A DNA stretch of 24,013 bases from a virus, in IMG/VR virus record IMGVR_UViG_3300030060_003039, positions 283 through 24,295 of that record. The stretch is one strand, 5' to 3'. Position 1 is the stretch's first letter. Each line of letters starts with the position of its first letter. The notes beneath the pieces are model-generated. The model was not told the DNA's origin. It ran no database searches and saw only the letters and a program-made list of their open reading frames with translations. Positions 3,943 through 24,013 of the stretch are shown one piece after another. The position numbers and the translations under genes were made by a program.

Positions 3943-5064
3943 ATGAGAACTTTAGAAAACAAAATATCAAGGTCTAACATTAGACTGATGGTAGACAAAG
4001 TGAGAAAGGGTTGGGGTTTTTATGCCTCAATCCTTTTTAAAATGGATATGATTAAGGATAACGATATCCCAACAATGGCAACAGATGGAGATAAAATATT
4101 TTATAATCCTGAGTGGTCAGACACATTAACTGAGGAAGAGTTAGACTTTGTTAGATGTCATGAGGGTATGCATAGAGTTTTAAGGCATCATCTCAGGACA
4201 AAAGACAGAGACAAAAGATTGTGGAATATTGCCACAGACTTTGCCATTAACTCTATCTTAAAAAAGTCAGGTATGACCATGCCTAAAGATGGTCTGTTTG
4301 ATCCAAAATACGACAACATGAGTGCTGAAAAGATTTATGCATTACTTGAAAAAGAAATGGACAAATCGCCTCAATGTTCTTGGGGAAACATTATACCTAA
4401 AGACAAGACAGAAGATGAAACCAGAGTTGAAGAAAGTATAATTATGCAAGAAACAACAATGGCATTACAGAATGTGAAAGACATTGGCAGTCTTCCTAGT
4501 GATATAAAAGATCTTATCCAAGAAATGGAAAGGTCTCAGGTTGATTGGTCTTCTGTTATAAGAAGAGTTGTTGGAGGAGATCAGCCTGAAGACTATACAT
4601 TCAGGAGACCAAACAGAAGATCACTACATTGTTTTGATATGTTTATGCCAAGCACATTAAAACTTGGTTGTGGAGATGTTGTTGTTTGGGTTGATACCTC
4701 TGGATCAGTATCTAATAAGGAACTCTCCCATGCTCTGGGGGAGATCAATGCTATATCTGAGGATATGCAACCTAACTCAGTAACTATTTTCTATGCTGAT
4801 ACCGATATACAAAAAACAGAAAGGTATGAGAAAGGAGATATTATTGAGAATTTAAACGTAAAGGGAAGAGGGGGAACTGATCCCATGTGTGTATTTAAAC
4901 ACATTGAAGATAACGACATGAATGTAGATAGCATGGTTTGTATAACTGATATGGGTTTTTACAAGTTTCCTGAGAATGTTGATTATCCTTTGTTGTGGGT
5001 ATCAACAGATCTAAGAGCCAACGTGCCACCTATTGGGGAAATTACTTTCCTCAAGGTGGCATAG
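3943..5064 (+). CDS. HExxH (DUF2201-like) plus VWA-domain protein, MoxR partner
   Basis: A 373-residue two-part protein. The N-terminal half matches the DUF2201 metallopeptidase-like family: His73-Glu-Gly-Met-His77 followed by His-His and Leu-Arg, then a Trp-Asn-Ile-Ala-Thr-Asp motif with Asp99, a plausible third zinc ligand. A charged linker (140-215) leads to a VWA-like domain with a complete MIDAS: Asp251-Thr-Ser-Gly-Ser255, Thr312 in Gly-Gly-Thr-Asp-Pro, and Asp336. This architecture usually accompanies MoxR ATPases, and here the ATPase is the gene just upstream. The VWA part would dock on the ATPase and present substrates. Proteolysis by the HExxH part is possible but unproven in this family. 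The end of the gene contains a strong hairpin (5025-5060). Confidence 0.88.
   Translation: MRTLENKISRSNIRLMVDKVRKGWGFYASILFKMDMIKDNDIPTMATDGDKIFYNPEWSDTLTEEELDFVRCHEGMHRVLRHHLRTKDRDKRLWNIATDFAINSILKKSGMTMPKDGLFDPKYDNMSAEKIYALLEKEMDKSPQCSWGNIIPKDKTEDETRVEESIIMQETTMALQNVKDIGSLPSDIKDLIQEMERSQVDWSSVIRRVVGGDQPEDYTFRRPNRRSLHCFDMFMPSTLKLGCGDVVVWVDTSGSVSNKELSHALGEINAISEDMQPNSVTIFYADTDIQKTERYEKGDIIENLNVKGRGGTDPMCVFKHIEDNDMNVDSMVCITDMGFYKFPENVDYPLLWVSTDLRANVPPIGEITFLKVA
5025..5060 (+). other. Two-tier stem-loop at the 3' end of the VWA gene
   Basis: GCCACCT (5025-5031) pairs with AGGTGGC (5054-5060). Inside it GGGGAAA pairs with TTTCCTC (one G-T) around tetraloop TTAC. Fourteen base pairs in 36 nt ending just before the stop codon suggest an RNA processing, stability or attenuation element between the VWA gene and the 349-aa gene. 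No T-tract follows directly. A weaker AAGTTA-ATAA-TAACTT hairpin with TT lies at 5069-5084. Confidence 0.45.
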
Positions 5065-15677: not shown

Positions 15678-15706
15678 TAACTTTTATCCTGCCTCTTTAA
15701 ATCCTG
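15678..15706. repeat. Direct repeat A, copy 2 (contains the giant gene's stop)
   Basis: Matches 15528-15556 in 28 of 29 positions and encodes the last residues (Gly-Phe-Lys-Glu-Ala-Gly) and the TAA of the giant protein. The spacing between copies is 150 bp. Confidence 0.85.
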
Positions 15707-18700
15707 CCGATCTCATTAATATCAAGCCTCTTCTCATGAGGTCGTTTATTCTTTCTCTTCTAATTCTAATAATGTTTTTCTTCATTTTTTCGTCTAGTCT
15801 AGGGTTTCTTTCAATCTCTCTTATCTGCCGTAATAAGCGATTTCTTGCATTATCTATTGCTTTTAGTCTTGGAATAATACTCAGTTGCTTTCTATTCGCT
15901 GCCAAAATATCGTTGATAGCGTCAATGTCTCCTGATCTTCTTGCTAAGTCAAATCTAGCTAATATAGTAAATGCATCTTTTCTGTTCTCTAAATAATTAC
16001 TTACATCTTCTCTGTCGCTAGGAGAAGCTATAACCTTCCTTGCAAAAGGAATAGCTCTAGTAACCGAGCCTTGAAAATCCCCGTTGACAGCGTCAATGAT
16101 ATCAAATGGCGATTCTAAACTTCTTTGAACAAATCTTCCTGCACCACCAGTCATATAATCAAACCAAAACTCCATAACATCTGGAGATAAATCTACAAAA
16201 CCACTCTCAACTTCATCTCCACCAGTAATCGTATTTAGCGAATTTGCTATTGTTTTAGCTATACCACTTGTGCTTGACCAATATGCTTGACTATTTGGTG
16301 TTGGTCTTGATGCAAACTGAGGCGACTCTTTAAAGATAGGATCTCCTTTGTAATCCTCGTTGATAGCCACGCTGACAAACGGATCAAGTACAGTAGGTGC
16401 TGCAAGGTTATAAAAATTATCAAATCCACCAAATGGACTTAAACTTTCAAATGCCGTACCAAAAATAGTTCTTGATGCTTGCCCTGCAGTGTATTCACCC
16501 CGGGCTGCTCTAGACATGGACCTCCCAAGGTTAACCGCTATGTTCATACCGTAAGCTAAAGGTATAGTTATAAATTTATCTTCTGCTAATCCAAATGTCG
16601 GTAACACTAAATTATGCTCTAGTATATATCTTGGAAGTTCATCGTAATCGTTAATACCATCTTCATCCTCATCCCCAGACAACATTGCGTTAATTGCATC
16701 TTGTGCCACACCATAAGCTATTAACCCAGCCCACACTTTTCTTACACGAGGCGATTTTACTGCTGCGTTTATAAGTGCCATGCTTCCTTGTAAAGATGCA
16801 TTATAAAATAAATACCAAGAGTTTAAGAACTGCTTCTGTTCACCGCCCTTCGCAAAGTTTACGGTTATGTTCCTAGCCGCTTGAGCTGCGCGATCATCGG
16901 AGAAGCCACGTTTTTTTAATGCAGAAAAAGTAGCAACACGAACACCGTTTTCAACTGCTGTGTTATAATCATCAAGAAACTTACCTAATCCCATAAATCC
17001 TTTTTTAACTAATCCTAACTTACCTTTTTTACTATTATCAGCAACATCACTTAATATGCCATTAATTCTATTCATTTGATCTTGCAAATCATTCATTTGG
17101 TTAGTTGCGTTTTTACCACCAGCATTAACAAATTTTAAATATTCTTTTGCCCAAAAATTATCTACATCACCATCACGAAGATTTTTTGCTATTCCTTTAA
17201 CAGCAGGTAATGCTCCCTTTAAAACCTCGCTAGTAATTCCTTTTGCATCATATTGTTGTATATTTACACCTGCTGTCTCAAGGTCTCTAGCAAAGTTTGG
17301 AATAACAAATGATGGATTATATGTTGTATTAATATTAGATAAATACCTGTTCAGCTTTCCAAGGGCCCTAGTAAAAGCGCCCACGCTATCAGGAGTCATG
17401 AAGCCTTTCATTGCTCTTGCTATTCTAGGATCTGTAAATGTTACATAAACATCTTTACCGTTTTCTCTTACGGTTAATACTTTGTCACGCATATCATTTG
17501 GTATTTCATCTTTTTTAAAATATACATGACTCAAATCTTGCATCTCACGCTTTAAGTTATCGTTAACTTCTACGCTTCCATCTTCAATGCCTCTTACAAG
17601 ATTTAAATATGATTTTCCAACTTTATTTCTCTCAGCATCTGCTATTGACTTATTGTTTTGAGAAAAAAGACTAGCAACTATATTTTCAGCATAATAATCA
17701 CTACCACCGCCTTCATCAGTTCTTATTCTTCCTAGTGCTTTTTTATCTGGTCTACCTATAGCACCAAATAAATTTCGTATTACAATGTTTTCTTTTCTTT
17801 CAACATTACTATTATCCTCTAATATTTCTTGCTCAAGTCCTAAATCACCTCGTAACGGAACATAATTATCATATATTTGTGTGTATTCATTGCCATCTTT
17901 ATCAACAAATACCTCTGGTATTAAACCACCATCTTTTCTTTCTTGGTTAGTAATTTGAACTATATCTTGAGCAGATTTTATTATACTATTAATTTTTGTT
18001 TTTTCCGCATCAGGAAGTGCATCAACCCAAGCAAGTATTCTATTAGCTTCGTTGGTATGCATGCCAGATGCTTTGTCATTTTTTAAATAGTTGTTTCTTT
18101 CTTTAGCATGCGATGCGTAAAGGATGGCATCTGCAAGTGCCATTTTTTTACTAGGATATCTGCCATCTGCAGCAATTCGGTAAAACTTTGATCTTATTGC
18201 TAAATCATCTAACATTGAATCATTTACATTTAAAGAATCTATAGTTTTTACCATTGGCTCAAAGTTTTCTTTTTGAACTTTGTCTACCTTAGCTCCTGCA
18301 ATACCGTGAAACAACTCCTCTCTCATATAAACATCTAAAGCATCAGTAATTTTAACACCAGCATCTCTAAGCCTGTCTATAAGAACTCCAACGGGTAAAA
18401 ATCTATCTTGTGCTTGTATTAATAGGTTTTGAGCAGCTTCTCTTGCTTTATTTTCTTCAACTCTTCCTAAAGTTAATGCATAACCTAACTTGCCTAATAT
18501 TTTAGATAAATTGTCATATCTAATTTTTTGCCTTGCCTCTTCAACCCCTCGAAGTGTAGCATCGCTGGTAGCCGTTTCTCCTTGAGTCATTGTAGGTGTA
18601 GCTCCTACAGCAGAATACTTATATAGTTTTTCTTCTGGATAAGAGGTTCTTATTACATATGTTCCAATTTTAAAAGTTTGACCATCAGAATCTAATGGTT

Positions 18701-21700
18701 GTCCAGCAGGAATAAACTTTAATGGTATAATTAATTTATGTCTTTTCGGACCTCTTGATGGCGTTTTATTAAACTCTAAGCGTAATCCAGTGGCTGTAGT
18801 GTCAACTATTTCTACGCCATTTTGTGCGCCTTTTGTTTGTTGAAAGTGCAGTTTAGCTAAATTATCAAACAATAACTCTTCTACAGAATTATATTTAAAC
18901 ACCTCTAACAATTCATCAGCATGGCTTTTATTTTTATCAGGTCTAATTGCATTAATATGTTTTTTACCATAACCGCTGTATAAAAATGCTTTACCCCTAT
19001 TTATTTCTTCATGCTTTCCATCTACATGAAGTATTACTCTAGTTCTATTACCATCGTTTATAGCACCATAAGCATATCTAGACGCTTGGCTTCCTTTAGT
19101 TCCATATAATCCTGTTACTCTAGGAACTCCAATTAACGAAAACTTTTGCTCTTCTATAGTTTCGTTTAAAGGAGCAAGATCTTCTTGAGGCACTTCACTT
19201 AATGCATCATAATCCTCTATTTCGGCTTCTGTGTACTCTCTCTTTTCATGCCCGATATTTTGAGCAACCTCTCCAGTAGAGCTGAGAGATTCTCCTCCTT
19301 CGTTTCCGATATCATCGAGTCGTTCTCTGTAATCTGAGGGGAGTGTTTCCCTGATTCTTTCTTCATCTATTCCTCTCTTTCTTAAAAAATCTATTGCAGA
19401 ATCCACATAATCATTGTCACTCCCAAGTCCGGGCCTAACTCCTATGCTTTTAAATAATCTTTTTTCTCCATACCAATGCGTAGCTTGAGCATCTGCTATA
19501 GTAACTGGTAAATTTATTCCTTTTTTTACTCTATTTCTATTTACTTGTTCTACAACTTTTGTATACAAATCACGAATAGCTTTTCTATGAGAAGGATTTT
19601 TAGGTTGCTCTTGCATTGTATCCGCTGAATTTTCAGCAAGTCTTTCAAATTTTTTAAAAAGTTCAGTTTTGTATTTGTTTAAAAATATTCTTGCTTTCTC
19701 TATGCCTTCTTTTTTTCTAAATGAAACATAGTCTTTTTGAAATGTATTATGAGCAAGAGTAGCAATTTCAGTAATATTAGATTCATTTACAATGTCTATA
19801 CCCAAGTCATCTGTTACTATTTTTAATCTTTGTTTCTCATCTGCTGTTCCATTAGTTAATGCTCTTTGCACTTCATCTAATGACTCTCTCCTGTTTTTTT
19901 CAAGAGTTTTATCTGTTCTTTTTACAAAAGGGGTTCCTAGTGTTCTATTAATGGTTCTCATAAACCATCTATCCATAGTTAGGTATTCATAGTTACCTAT
20001 AATATTTTGATAAAAAGCACCAATTTTACTGCCAAATATAAAAGAAAATGGCACAACTTCATCAACATTTTCATCAGAAATAACTGCTTTTTTACCTGTA
20101 ACCGTTTCTAAACCTAAAATAACAGGATCATTTTCTATTTCTTTTTTTGATGCAGTTTTAGATAAAAATTCTTTTATTTGTAAATCTGATAAGCCTTTTT
20201 CTTTTAACAAATTATAAGACCCTAAAGCCTTAATCATACCAGCAGATTGCATCCCTTGATTGGATAAATTAAATTTACCTGTTTCAACCCAGTTATCCAT
20301 ATGAAGTTTTAAAGCCGTGCTTTGTCCTTTTACTGACTCACCATTAGAGGTTACAGCTAATAAAAAATCAAAAGCAGAATCTGCATTTTTGTCTTCTTTT
20401 ATTATTGGTATATCTATAGCATATAATTTTTTAGCTACTTTAATCTTTTCATCATACCAACCGATTGCAGACTGATCCGCATCCAAAAATACTTCTAACT
20501 CTTGAGCCAATGCTTGTTTTGCTAACTCTCGTTCCTCTGGATTGTTAATATCTAATACAATATTTCCTCTTTGATCTTGAAACTTTCTTACTGCCTCTGT
20601 CATTTTAACAGAGCCTATAGGTGCTTGTTGTAAGAATTTTTTATCGTCATCAAGCAAATTAATTGCATTTATGTTTTCAGTAGTTAATCCTTTTACAGAA
20701 AACTTTTTTGTTCCTTGTGGCAATACCGCTACATCATCAAATATAGCCGCAACCATACCTAACTGTTGGCCAGTCCAATAACCAACAAAACCAGCATCTT
20801 TAATCTTTCTTTCCATTAATGTAGCAGATAACATGCCAATATCAGGATCTCCAGCCGCCTCTTTTGCAGCTTGTTTTCTATAGCCATTTGGATCTGCATC
20901 TAATGGATAAAGACGATTTACTTCTATTTTACCTTCATATGCATTATCCCCTACACCTACTTCTTTTCTATACCCACCATCTTCTCCAACATTTAAACCA
21001 TAATAGTTTCTTGATGGATAAGTGCTTGGAAATGTTCTTCTTCTTCGTGTTTCTTGACCACGAATGTTAAAGTTAGTTCCTTGTTTATCTGGGGATATTA
21101 CAGCTAGATTAGGTTCAAAAGAGTAGTGAGTTAATGTTACATATCCATCATTATCAACAGTAGGGTAATAACCTACCTCTTCTTTTATGTTTCTTTCTTG
21201 GCCTGCTTCAATTCTTGTTGGGCTAGAAATTCTGGATTTTTGCTCGGTTTCACGCTGATACCTTGTCTTTTTAAATTCTTCAGTAAGTTTTCGTATATTT
21301 GATTGACGCTCTGCTCTGCGTTTACCATCGTAAGTATTGGCTTCTTGTAATCCTTTGATTCCATCTTGTGTGTCCGTATACTCAAAGTTGTTTAAATTAA
21401 ATATGCCTTCTTGTTCTGCAGCTTCTCCAATGTACAATGCATCAGCATAATCGTCAACAAGCATTGTTGCATCCAAATAAAACATTCCATCTGGACCAGT
21501 CCAACCGCCTGCAAATATTTTAGTTTTTGACAACTGAGACATAATATAAATATTTTCAGCAAACTGGTATAGTGTCTCTTCATTTAAGTCTTGAGGCTTA
21601 ACCTTTATCTCTGCCGCTTTAACAGGAGCAACGGCTATACCTGAAGACATATCATCTAATGAATCTGGATCAACTGTAAACCCATCTGGATTATCTTTAA

Positions 21701-24013
21701 TAATGCCTAATAATCTGTTATTTAATGGCTCTGGTTTTGCAAAACCTATGCTTGAGTATTTGTAATCTTGTTTTCTACCAAAGGTGGGATTTTTAGCCAT
21801 AACAAGAGGGCCAATTTGCACGGCTCTATCAGCAGCTATAATTGGTTGTGTGGTTGTCCTGTCATAAAAATATGAATGTCTTTCTGGATCAAATCCAACT
21901 TGAACAAAAGATGGATCTAACATAGCAGATTGTGCTTCAGCAAATGCAGCTTCAGGAGTTGTTTTTTCTAATTTACCCTCTATTGTGGCAAATGGACCTT
22001 TCTGTGCGCCTGCTGCTATTCTAAGGCCTATTCTCTGGGCACCGGGTGTTGGCTCTAAAGAAACTCCATTTACAATAGCCACACTTTCATGAGATATTTT
22101 TCTATTATTTACATCATGAATAGTTGGAACCCAAACTCCTTTTTGAGTATATGCAGGAATATCAAGTCTTAATCTTACCGTTGTACCATTTTCTACATTT
22201 TGTAATTTATTTATAAATGGAACTTTATCTTTTGCCAAAGCCTCAGTCATACTCTCTGTTGTTGCAGGCTCTGGCACGGTTATATAAGGTATAATAGGTT
22301 TAAACTCATTTACTAACTTATCATACTCTGCATAATCTATTTTACCATCTTGTAAGTCTTGTGCTGCTTTTTCTAACTTAGGTAATCTTTGAGTTACATC
22401 TTTAAATGATTGTTTTATTCTTTCTATATTACCTTTTTCTGGAGCAATATAACCTGCAACAATACCAGCAGTGCTAAATTTTTTGTCACTTCTTATATTT
22501 TCGTTTCTGTCTCTTCTACCTATTTGCTTTTCTTCATTAGTAGTGCCAATATTTTCAAATATTTGCCCAGCCTCTGTAAACCCTTGTGATTGATGTGCAG
22601 TAAATATAGCTTTTATAAAGTTAACAATTTTTTGAAATATAGTTTTTGGTTTATTAGGCAATACCAATTTGCCATCTGCAAAGTCACGATACATTTCTGC
22701 AATAGCTTCTTCAATTTTACCATCAGAATCTAATTGAGGGTACATTTTAACAGCTCTTTCAGCATAACTGTATTGTCTAGTTACAGGTTTGCCGTCTATC
22801 ATAACGACATATTTTGTTGATTGAGCAGCATTAACAAGTATTTTTTGCTCTTTATTTGTTAATACACCTAAATTAAACAAAGCATGTATTATCTCATGAT
22901 TCATAACTGAAGCTAATTTTTGTTGTAAATCTGCTTCTGATAAACTTGGGTCATATATTTCCATAGCTAATCCTATGGTTTTATTAGAATAAAACCCTTC
23001 ATTAACAGTGCCTGTAGCTATTTGTTGTTGTGGAGTTAGTCCTTCTTTAGCAAGTATATTTTGAAAATCTAACTTAACATCGCCTAATCCTATAGCAGAT
23101 AAAGACTTTCTTAAAGCATCTTGAACTTTAGCAGACTTTGATTTGTATTCTTTAGTTTTTACATTTGCATTGTCAAATGCTACTTTTGCTTTTATTGGAG
23201 GAACTATTTGACTTGCTTTTAAAGCTGTTGTTCCAAGTTTTTTGTTTGATTCATTTGCTAAATTAATCGCTTGTTTAGATACAGCATCATAGTTTGTTAC
23301 TAAGTCATTGATTTGACCATCTAAATCATCAACAGGTTGTTTGTTTTGTAACTTTTCTTTTCTTTGTTTATTTAAATTATTTCTTTCATTTAATATTTCT
23401 TTTGCTCTAGCTTTTAACTGTTCTGCTTTTATTGCAATATCTTGTTCAGTGGTTGTAGTTGGAACTAATTTTCCTTTTTGTTTTTTGATAACTTCATTTT
23501 GTATTAACTTATCTCTAATTCTATTTATTACAGATTGAGGTATAGTTTTTCTTTTTTTAGTTTTTAAAGCATTTCTTGCATTAGCCTGATTAAATTCGCC
23601 TTTTAATTTTACTTGATCTTTTACTTTATTATAGTCTGCATCATTTATATCTGCATCTAAGTCTTTTGCTCTATTTAAAGCAACTTCTAAATCTGCCTCA
23701 GAAAGAGTTTCATCCCTAAGAGTTGGCTGATAAACATCTGGTCTATTGTCTATAACTTCTTGTCTAATGTGATCTGGTAGCATTGACAATGTTAAAAATT
23801 TAGCTTCAGGATCAGATGGTTCAGTTATAACCTTTCCTTGTACATTTGGAGATGGCAAACCTCTATTTAAAAAGTTTTGCGCATTTTGATTCATGACCCC
23901 AGCTGATTCTTTTAAAGCTCTTTGATCCTCTTGTAGCTCTCCTGTTTTTGTAAGTTTTTTAGACTTATCACCACCTATGATATTACCTGTACTACTCACA
24001 GTACCACCAATAA
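15684..24013 (-). CDS. Giant LPD38-type polyvalent phage protein, >2770 aa (start outside window)
   Basis: The frame is open from the right edge to TAA at 15684. A GTG at 23999 could be read as a start, but codons before it continue in the same Gly/Ser-rich style, so the gene probably begins outside the window. Residues are counted from that GTG. A Lys/Gln-rich helical N-terminus (1-330) is followed by a metallopeptidase-like domain with His368-Glu-Ile-Ile-His372 and Glu430-Glu-Ala-Ile-Ala-Glu. An ADP-ribosyltransferase-like region (about 940-1095) has Leu-Thr-His958-Tyr-Ser and ends Gly-Tyr-Trp-Thr-Gly, Phe-Asp-Asp-Val-Ala-Val. A region at 1620-1795 recalls Barnase/EndoU/RelE-type phage nuclease domains. 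The C-terminal LPD38-like part (about 2200-2600) contains Tyr-Asn-Pro-Ser-Phe-Val-Ile-Pro-Asn-Phe-Ala-Arg-Asp. Such proteins are thought to be packaged in the virion and injected. K-[FY]-S-x-x-G recurs five times between regions. Confidence 0.9.
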   Translation of the reverse strand, partial: IGGTVSSTGNIIGGDKSKKLTKTGELQEDQRALKESAGVMNQNAQNFLNRGLPSPNVQGKVITEPSDPEAKFLTLSMLPDHIRQEVIDNRPDVYQPTLRDETLSEADLEVALNRAKDLDADINDADYNKVKDQVKLKGEFNQANARNALKTKKRKTIPQSVINRIRDKLIQNEVIKKQKGKLVPTTTTEQDIAIKAEQLKARAKEILNERNNLNKQRKEKLQNKQPVDDLDGQINDLVTNYDAVSKQAINLANESNKKLGTTALKASQIVPPIKAKVAFDNANVKTKEYKSKSAKVQDALRKSLSAIGLGDVKLDFQNILAKEGLTPQQQIATGTVNEGFYSNKTIGLAMEIYDPSLSEADLQQKLASVMNHEIIHALFNLGVLTNKEQKILVNAAQSTKYVVMIDGKPVTRQYSYAERAVKMYPQLDSDGKIEEAIAEMYRDFADGKLVLPNKPKTIFQKIVNFIKAIFTAHQSQGFTEAGQIFENIGTTNEEKQIGRRDRNENIRSDKKFSTAGIVAGYIAPEKGNIERIKQSFKDVTQRLPKLEKAAQDLQDGKIDYAEYDKLVNEFKPIIPYITVPEPATTESMTEALAKDKVPFINKLQNVENGTTVRLRLDIPAYTQKGVWVPTIHDVNNRKISHESVAIVNGVSLEPTPGAQRIGLRIAAGAQKGPFATIEGKLEKTTPEAAFAEAQSAMLDPSFVQVGFDPERHSYFYDRTTTQPIIAADRAVQIGPLVMAKNPTFGRKQDYKYSSIGFAKPEPLNNRLLGIIKDNPDGFTVDPDSLDDMSSGIAVAPVKAAEIKVKPQDLNEETLYQFAENIYIMSQLSKTKIFAGGWTGPDGMFYLDATMLVDDYADALYIGEAAEQEGIFNLNNFEYTDTQDGIKGLQEANTYDGKRRAERQSNIRKLTEEFKKTRYQRETEQKSRISSPTRIEAGQERNIKEEVGYYPTVDNDGYVTLTHYSFEPNLAVISPDKQGTNFNIRGQETRRRRTFPSTYPSRNYYGLNVGEDGGYRKEVGVGDNAYEGKIEVNRLYPLDADPNGYRKQAAKEAAGDPDIGMLSATLMERKIKDAGFVGYWTGQQLGMVAAIFDDVAVLPQGTKKFSVKGLTTENINAINLLDDDKKFLQQAPIGSVKMTEAVRKFQDQRGNIVLDINNPEERELAKQALAQELEVFLDADQSAIGWYDEKIKVAKKLYAIDIPIIKEDKNADSAFDFLLAVTSNGESVKGQSTALKLHMDNWVETGKFNLSNQGMQSAGMIKALGSYNLLKEKGLSDLQIKEFLSKTASKKEIENDPVILGLETVTGKKAVISDENVDEVVPFSFIFGSKIGAFYQNIIGNYEYLTMDRWFMRTINRTLGTPFVKRTDKTLEKNRRESLDEVQRALTNGTADEKQRLKIVTDDLGIDIVNESNITEIATLAHNTFQKDYVSFRKKEGIEKARIFLNKYKTELFKKFERLAENSADTMQEQPKNPSHRKAIRDLYTKVVEQVNRNRVKKGINLPVTIADAQATHWYGEKRLFKSIGVRPGLGSDNDYVDSAIDFLRKRGIDEERIRETLPSDYRERLDDIGNEGGESLSSTGEVAQNIGHEKREYTEAEIEDYDALSEVPQEDLAPLNETIEEQKFSLIGVPRVTGLYGTKGSQASRYAYGAINDGNRTRVILHVDGKHEEINRGKAFLYSGYGKKHINAIRPDKNKSHADELLEVFKYNSVEELLFDNLAKLHFQQTKGAQNGVEIVDTTATGLRLEFNKTPSRGPKRHKLIIPLKFIPAGQPLDSDGQTFKIGTYVIRTSYPEEKLYKYSAVGATPTMTQGETATSDATLRGVEEARQKIRYDNLSKILGKLGYALTLGRVEENKAREAAQNLLIQAQDRFLPVGVLIDRLRDAGVKITDALDVYMREELFHGIAGAKVDKVQKENFEPMVKTIDSLNVNDSMLDDLAIRSKFYRIAADGRYPSKKMALADAILYASHAKERNNYLKNDKASGMHTNEANRILAWVDALPDAEKTKINSIIKSAQDIVQITNQERKDGGLIPEVFVDKDGNEYTQIYDNYVPLRGDLGLEQEILEDNSNVERKENIVIRNLFGAIGRPDKKALGRIRTDEGGGSDYYAENIVASLFSQNNKSIADAERNKVGKSYLNLVRGIEDGSVEVNDNLKREMQDLSHVYFKKDEIPNDMRDKVLTVRENGKDVYVTFTDPRIARAMKGFMTPDSVGAFTRALGKLNRYLSNINTTYNPSFVIPNFARDLETAGVNIQQYDAKGITSEVLKGALPAVKGIAKNLRDGDVDNFWAKEYLKFVNAGGKNATNQMNDLQDQMNRINGILSDVADNSKKGKLGLVKKGFMGLGKFLDDYNTAVENGVRVATFSALKKRGFSDDRAAQAARNITVNFAKGGEQKQFLNSWYLFYNASLQGSMALINAAVKSPRVRKVWAGLIAYGVAQDAINAMLSGDEDEDGINDYDELPRYILEHNLVLPTFGLAEDKFITIPLAYGMNIAVNLGRSMSRAARGEYTAGQASRTIFGTAFESLSPFGGFDNFYNLAAPTVLDPFVSVAINEDYKGDPIFKESPQFASRPTPNSQAYWSSTSGIAKTIANSLNTITGGDEVESGFVDLSPDVMEFWFDYMTGGAGRFVQRSLESPFDIIDAVNGDFQGSVTRAIPFARKVIASPSDREDVSNYLENRKDAFTILARFDLARRSGDIDAINDILAANRKQLSIIPRLKAIDNARNRLLRQIREIERNPRLDEKMKKNIIRIRRERINDLMRRGLILMRSAGFKEAG

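Follow-up and report, generated by a model that had tools for sequence, protein, structure and literature searches.

How a phage packs a multi-domain protein of 3000-4500 residues, passes it through the tail and matures it is the question raised by the giant gene at the edge of the window analysed here, a stretch of 24,013 nucleotides (bases 283-24295 of the 24295-base virus record IMGVR_UViG_3300030060_003039) from a podovirus-like marine phage. The product of this gene, P0001, carries the motif K-[FY]-S-x-x-G five times, at the borders of its domains, and related proteins vary the motif in step within each lineage. We conclude that the motif is very probably a selected signal, and give about even credence to the reading that it is a recognition site, most likely a cleavage site, of what the sequence suggests is a multi-effector polyprotein. 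A junction signal of this kind would offer a testable answer to the question and could serve in practice to mark out modules, including two (D2 and D3a) whose function is unassigned.

Five copies of one motif in P0001

The gene of P0001 runs off the contig end. The original prediction had counted from a GTG at 23999, which we abandon as a start because the frame is open up to the contig end and the giant proteins of relatives extend ~275 residues farther N-terminal in the alignment. Residue numbers given here count from the open frame and are four higher than those of the original prediction. All five copies that it listed are present in the minus-strand frame at 15684-24011: KFSTAG at 511, KYSSIG at 751, KFSVKG at 1103, KFSLIG at 1623 and KYSAVG at 1798. 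The protein has no [KR][FY]S tripeptide besides these. The chance expectation had been put well below one, and the composition of P0001 gives 0.06; none of 2000 shuffles of its sequence had more than two copies. Because K-[FY]-S-x-x-G was chosen post hoc, it was also set against the top-scoring pattern of the form [class][class]S.[class] that shuffled sequences yield. P0001 alone gave p=0.087, but the relatives L043 and L109 were each singly significant (0 of 150 shuffles in both cases). An unsupervised search for serine-anchored patterns in single proteins gave no significant pattern for most of them, the exceptions being L043, L109 and L081, so the variants of other lineages rest on the tests that combine several joints.

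The copies fall at module joints

P0001 qualifies as a polyvalent protein by its LPD38 domain (Pfam) and by the ADP-ribosyltransferase (ART)-like, RelE-like and zincin-like domains that structure comparison indicates, the last two weakly. Its features are, with residues in brackets:

15684-24011, minus strand: giant multi-effector (polyvalent) protein P0001, 2775 residues read, N-terminus cut off at the contig end
22554-23144, minus strand: zincin-type metallopeptidase domain (~290-486) with HEIIH and EEAIAE, folded in the model, weak zincin structure match (Z 3.4)
22884-22898, minus strand: HEIIH active-site motif (372-376), from sequence
22464-22481, minus strand: site 1, KFSTAG (511-516), in low-confidence linker 486-530
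21762-22424, minus strand: D2 domain (530-750), mobile module of unassigned function, on 48 viral contigs in varied contexts
21744-21761, minus strand: site 2, KYSSIG (751-756), C-terminal edge of D2, linker 753-760
21243-21731, minus strand: D3a alpha/beta domain (761-923), from the model; missing in L002 and L003
21225-21242, minus strand: QKSRIS (924-929), possible degenerate sixth copy, in linker 924-946
20709-21155, minus strand: ART-like domain (953-1101), VIA-align Z 6.1 to MbcT (6fkg) and 5.8 to the anti-CRISPR 6kyf
20688-20705, minus strand: site 3, KFSVKG (1103-1108), immediately following the ART-like domain, linker 1102-1140
19152-20594, minus strand: D4 helical region (1140-1620), from the AlphaFold model
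19128-19145, minus strand: site 4, KFSLIG (1623-1628), helix end just ahead of loop 1633-1639
18630-19046, minus strand: D5 RelE/BECR-like domain (1656-1794), weak match to RelE 2khe (Z 3.7, 77/89 residues)
18603-18620, minus strand: site 5, KYSAVG (1798-1803), start of linker 1796-1853
16113-16652, minus strand: LPD38 domain (2454-2633), Pfam PF18857, E 6.3e-35

Two AlphaFold models cover residues 280-1180 and 1090-1960. Their confidence is low at 486-530, 753-760, 924-946, 1102-1140, 1633-1639 and 1796-1853, and the remaining low-confidence stretches are mainly 319-352, 1567-1592, 1860-1909 and the model ends. Four of the sites (1, 2, 3 and 5) lie inside or touch such linkers and site 4 lies close to one of the loops; a position in linkers is what the original prediction had proposed to look for in structure models. 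The Z values of the structure comparisons are modest, with the ART-like and RelE-like folds taken from multi-domain models; Foldseek returned nothing below E 0.001 with the two models, and the sequence of the ART-like domain found no credible match in the PDB.

The claim that the copies sit at domain borders, one right after an ART-like region and two on either side of a nuclease-like region, is backed both by the models and by mosaic breakpoints. The ART-like domain stops two residues ahead of site 3, which is itself a mosaic breakpoint with 12 ends of high-scoring segment pairs, and sites 4 and 5 flank the RelE-like domain. In the relatives L002 and L003, the D3a-ART segment found between sites 2 and 3 of P0001 is missing, so a module and one motif copy were gained or lost together. 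The peptidase signature HExxH...EExxAE, described earlier as intact, is so (HEIIH at 372-376, followed by EEAIAE at 434-439), and each of the 16 family representatives that extend into the peptidase region has an HExxH.

As for D2, its sequence includes RLDIPAYT...WVPTIHD...QVGFDPERHSYFYDR...VIQVGPLVLAKNP. It also occurs as a stand-alone protein of ~266 residues (in L127, L129 and L133) and, in the Roseobacter phages CRP-207 and CRP-9, between the portal and coat genes.

The core is conserved and varies in step within lineages

Relatives were drawn from one scan (five close relatives), from an alignment of the C-terminal region (80 loci) and from a scan with D2 (48 loci). A genome scan with the C-terminus found no bacterial relative, a scan of viral contigs for LPD3 gave a single locus, and a Pfam ART-PolyVal search of 398 genomes matched two of them. 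When homologous joints are aligned, the serine is invariant at five of six and has an identity of 0.8 at the sixth. It is usually preceded by [FY], with a small or aliphatic residue two positions after it, giving the core [FY]-S-x-[IVA]. The flanks are mostly 12-32% identical, joints 1 and 2 being exceptions on the side of the domain. A core kept at the joints between variable flanks is what the original prediction had proposed to look for in homologues; as for its wording of the motif, the first K and the terminal G do not belong to the conserved part. At site 1, relatives carry K[FY]STAG or a near variant, and where P0001 has QKSRIS they show K[FY]S[STK]I[AGS]. The more distant L043 (42-46% identity) has five K-Y-S copies, at joints 1, 2, 4 and 5 and at the joint between D3a and the ART-like domain. 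The N-terminal MGMYSTISP of some relatives was considered as a further copy and rejected, being part of a conserved N-terminal domain that reads YRAIS or YNTFS elsewhere.

Each lineage tends to repeat its own variant: R[RK]S[RV]I in L056 and L062, D[FL]S[SQ][IL] in L081 and L079, [DNE][FY]SA[LI] in L047, and K[FY]S.[IAV] in proteins of the type of P0001. To quantify this coherence, a program chose one serine-anchored hexamer per joint, by best mutual likeness within the protein, and joints shuffled among lineages served as control; this and a homology-anchored version replaced a hand-picked one. Over all zones, some of them hand-placed after the motifs had been seen, the likeness within proteins was 9.1 against 4.1 in shuffles (0/600, p<1/600). 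The most conservative test, anchored by homology at three joints and avoiding most of that hand placement, gave 8.0 against 5.1 (p=0.003). In it, serine was the strongest anchor, followed by threonine (0.017), with the others at 0.04 or above. The lineages L040 and L014 showed little coherence. Lineage by lineage, non-equivalent joints of one protein change together, which points to a single factor, perhaps a protease, that reads them all.

Two related proteins deserve mention here. In L056 (885-1010), some 90 extra residues separate ARSKIT from RKSRIV, where L062 has a single KRSRII; judged from the sequences, this would be another insertion of a module together with a motif. In a bacterial genome (G087), the 3606-residue ART-PolyVal protein L153 has RFSL at 2121, 2405 and 2676, around its ART region (p 0.11), which hints at [KR][FY]S junctions beyond the family of P0001, the count alone not being significant.

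What the signal may do

In a 59.5-kb relative, the gene of a DNA ejection protein (phrog_4287) is followed by that of a transglycosylase and then by the giant, and phrog_4287 is present in 12/12 related records. Because of these genes directly upstream, we consider it very likely that P0001 is a virion protein ejected with the DNA. The earlier idea of a phage polyprotein acting after injection gains from this context, and a recogniser shared by all joints would fit it; its cleavage part stays conditional. In such a scheme, the phage would eject the giant as a multi-effector polyprotein, with a short linear signal held at its module joints. A protease, which may be its own zincin domain acting in cis or else some other enzyme of phage or host, would cut in or beside [FY]-S-x-[IVA], so that the peptidase, D2, ART-like, helical, RelE-like and LPD38 segments become effectors of their own. 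The cut might come before the protein is packaged, within the head or once it has been ejected.

A wider proposal, which we advance tentatively, is that a family of double-stranded DNA phages packs its counter-defence effectors joined in one polyprotein, with a lineage-specific cleavage consensus at the joints that co-evolves with a phage protease, so that the effectors would be freed separately on entry, in the manner of RNA viruses. The polyproteins of animal and plant viruses carry one protease consensus repeated at module borders and changing in step within a lineage. They hold a whole proteome, whereas P0001 would hold the injected effectors of a double-stranded DNA phage, and its cleavage is a supposition.

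Several points weigh against a cleavage site. We infer the cut itself, the cutting enzyme, the bond and the timing from the recognition signal. Site 4 caps a well-predicted helix, five residues ahead of the low-confidence loop. In the close relatives L002 and L003 the copies are weakened (LYSSI, QFSMIP, SYSFIP), and [KR][FY]S is missing in several LPD38 giants, including those of Vibrio and E. coli phages, which may use unrecognised variants. The virion RNA polymerase of phage N4, whose peptidase domain is related, is reported to be packaged without being cut (Iyer et al. 2017, PMC5512222). Finally, once lineage is controlled, likeness of the motif does not follow divergence of the peptidase (partial Mantel r -0.07, p 0.72, a weak test given its 18 sequences and 190-residue peptidase block).

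This last result bears on the enzyme. Self-cleavage by the HExxH domain, as originally predicted, fits an intact peptidase and the reading of the motif as a processing site, and self-processing has been proposed for the peptidases of polyvalent proteins (PMC5512222). Yet it is the lineage that motif variants follow: their likeness goes with the C-terminal region (partial r 0.47, p 0.002) rather than with the peptidase. The own zincin is thus not favoured as the recogniser, and we regard it as rather doubtful that it cuts at the motif.

The main rival to cleavage is a docking, packaging or ejection signal, one per module, that binds the capsid, scaffold, portal, ejection protein or an unfolding chaperone and is left uncut. 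Conservation and lineage-coherent variation would suit any co-evolving binder, as would variants that track the phage lineage and not the peptidase. P1 DarB has a short capsid-targeting sequence, of more than 9 and fewer than 30 residues (PMC9024508), and in the proteins L118 and L119 an amphipathic N-terminal segment is repeated before internal modules, as a per-module signal would be. The P1 signal, however, is not known as a per-module repeat, whereas in P0001 almost all joints have a copy, and these lie in linkers, as cleavage would require. The strict motif is also nearly absent from the other larger open reading frames (ORFs) of one related genome, with two matches, in a DnaB-type helicase and in the transglycosylase. 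On balance we find such a signal improbable, if worth keeping in view.

Within the cleavage reading, a trans-acting enzyme could process the sites, either a host protease or a second HExxH protein encoded in the window:

3943-5064, plus strand: putative metallopeptidase with HEGMH and VWA-like domain, DUF2201 (PF13203 E 5.3e-34, PF09967 E 1.2e-19)

This candidate protease is present in 8/12 related records and missing only from the four records of at most 31 kb. Besides its presence, the motif variation that does not track the in-cis peptidase argues for an enzyme of this kind, as does the failure to find an S78 prohead protease in six related records. Against it, the DUF2201 gene sits among replication-type genes, and the in-cis peptidase is always there with HExxH intact. 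We consider processing in trans by either enzyme unlikely. The ORFs scanned in the 59.5-kb relative also gave no separate head protease; its coat protein itself matches fused 'protease and head' profiles. The protein at 3943-5064 belongs to phrog_1314, labelled HNH endonuclease, a label that looks wrong given its matches to the DUF2201 metallopeptidase and VWA-like models and its HEGMH.

The joints might also be ordinary linkers, merely rich in K, S and small residues, where chance and homology suffice to give the copies. The single-protein result for P0001 goes in this direction, and so does site 2, whose K-[FY] belongs to the end of D2 and is there also in proteins that lack the remaining motif positions. 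Moreover, the raw enrichment of [KR][FY]S at borders (29/47 against 11.8 expected) is inflated by the kinship of the sequences and was dropped as main evidence, [KR][FY]S coming no higher than ~115th among 14665 tripeptide classes by this measure. But the motif is repeated at non-homologous joints, its serine is conserved far above the flanks, two relatives are singly significant and the variants change coherently by lineage. Aromatic and aliphatic residues are also atypical of flexible linkers, and control motifs showed no enrichment. We therefore disfavour ordinary linkers and consider them quite improbable. Lastly, a DNA-level recombination seam, with the motif as short homology for module exchange, would agree with the module insertions and mosaic breakpoints that coincide with its sites, but is rejected as most implausible because the serine codons of the copies (AGC, TCA, TCT, TCG, TCT) mix AGC with TCN and leave no common DNA word, which points to selection on the protein.

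Relation to known giant phage proteins

Like the polyvalent proteins described by Iyer et al. (PMC5512222), P0001 joins a zincin peptidase, ART-like, RelE/BECR-like and LPD38 domains in one giant. A repeated, lineage-specific junction motif sets its family apart from them, none being found in the accessible part of that account, which does mention that P1 DdrB is processed. We likened P0001 to P1 DarB, DarA and DdrB, packaged in the head and counteracting host defence, by role and not by sequence homology; DarA and DdrB are reported to undergo proteolytic processing, and in the portions of the sources at hand, these too were found without description of a repeated junction motif. The DarB-like gp69 of Burkholderia phage JC1 is a distant homologue with an LPD38 C-terminus as in P0001, and this giant was detected in purified virions (PMC9144972). 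It has a KYSVAP 27 residues ahead of its LPD3 domain, a mere hint of a junction motif, and differs from P0001 by having only three [KR][FY]S, another set of modules and no established series of junctions. The open literature searched gave no description of such a junction motif.

Other signals in related virion-type proteins

A second motif, [FYM][AS].GG (for example KYSSGGR, YAEGGSV, FADGGEV, SYAEGGLIEG and MAEGGVIRA), occurs in related phage virion-type proteins, 85 times against 29.8 expected in 480 non-redundant ORFs, with some copies at module joints. It is found at 454, 899 and 1027 in L118 and at 454, 740 and 1136 in L119, in L149-L151, and in the gene upstream of the giant of L039, L083 and L005. 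The amphipathic N-terminus of L118 and L119 (VEQALKLVMG..., residues 1-30) recurs at ~205-235 and 460-490, after GG junctions and before internal modules. Its repeat score is 57-58, against a shuffle maximum of 44, and the repeated segment is possibly a per-module signal.

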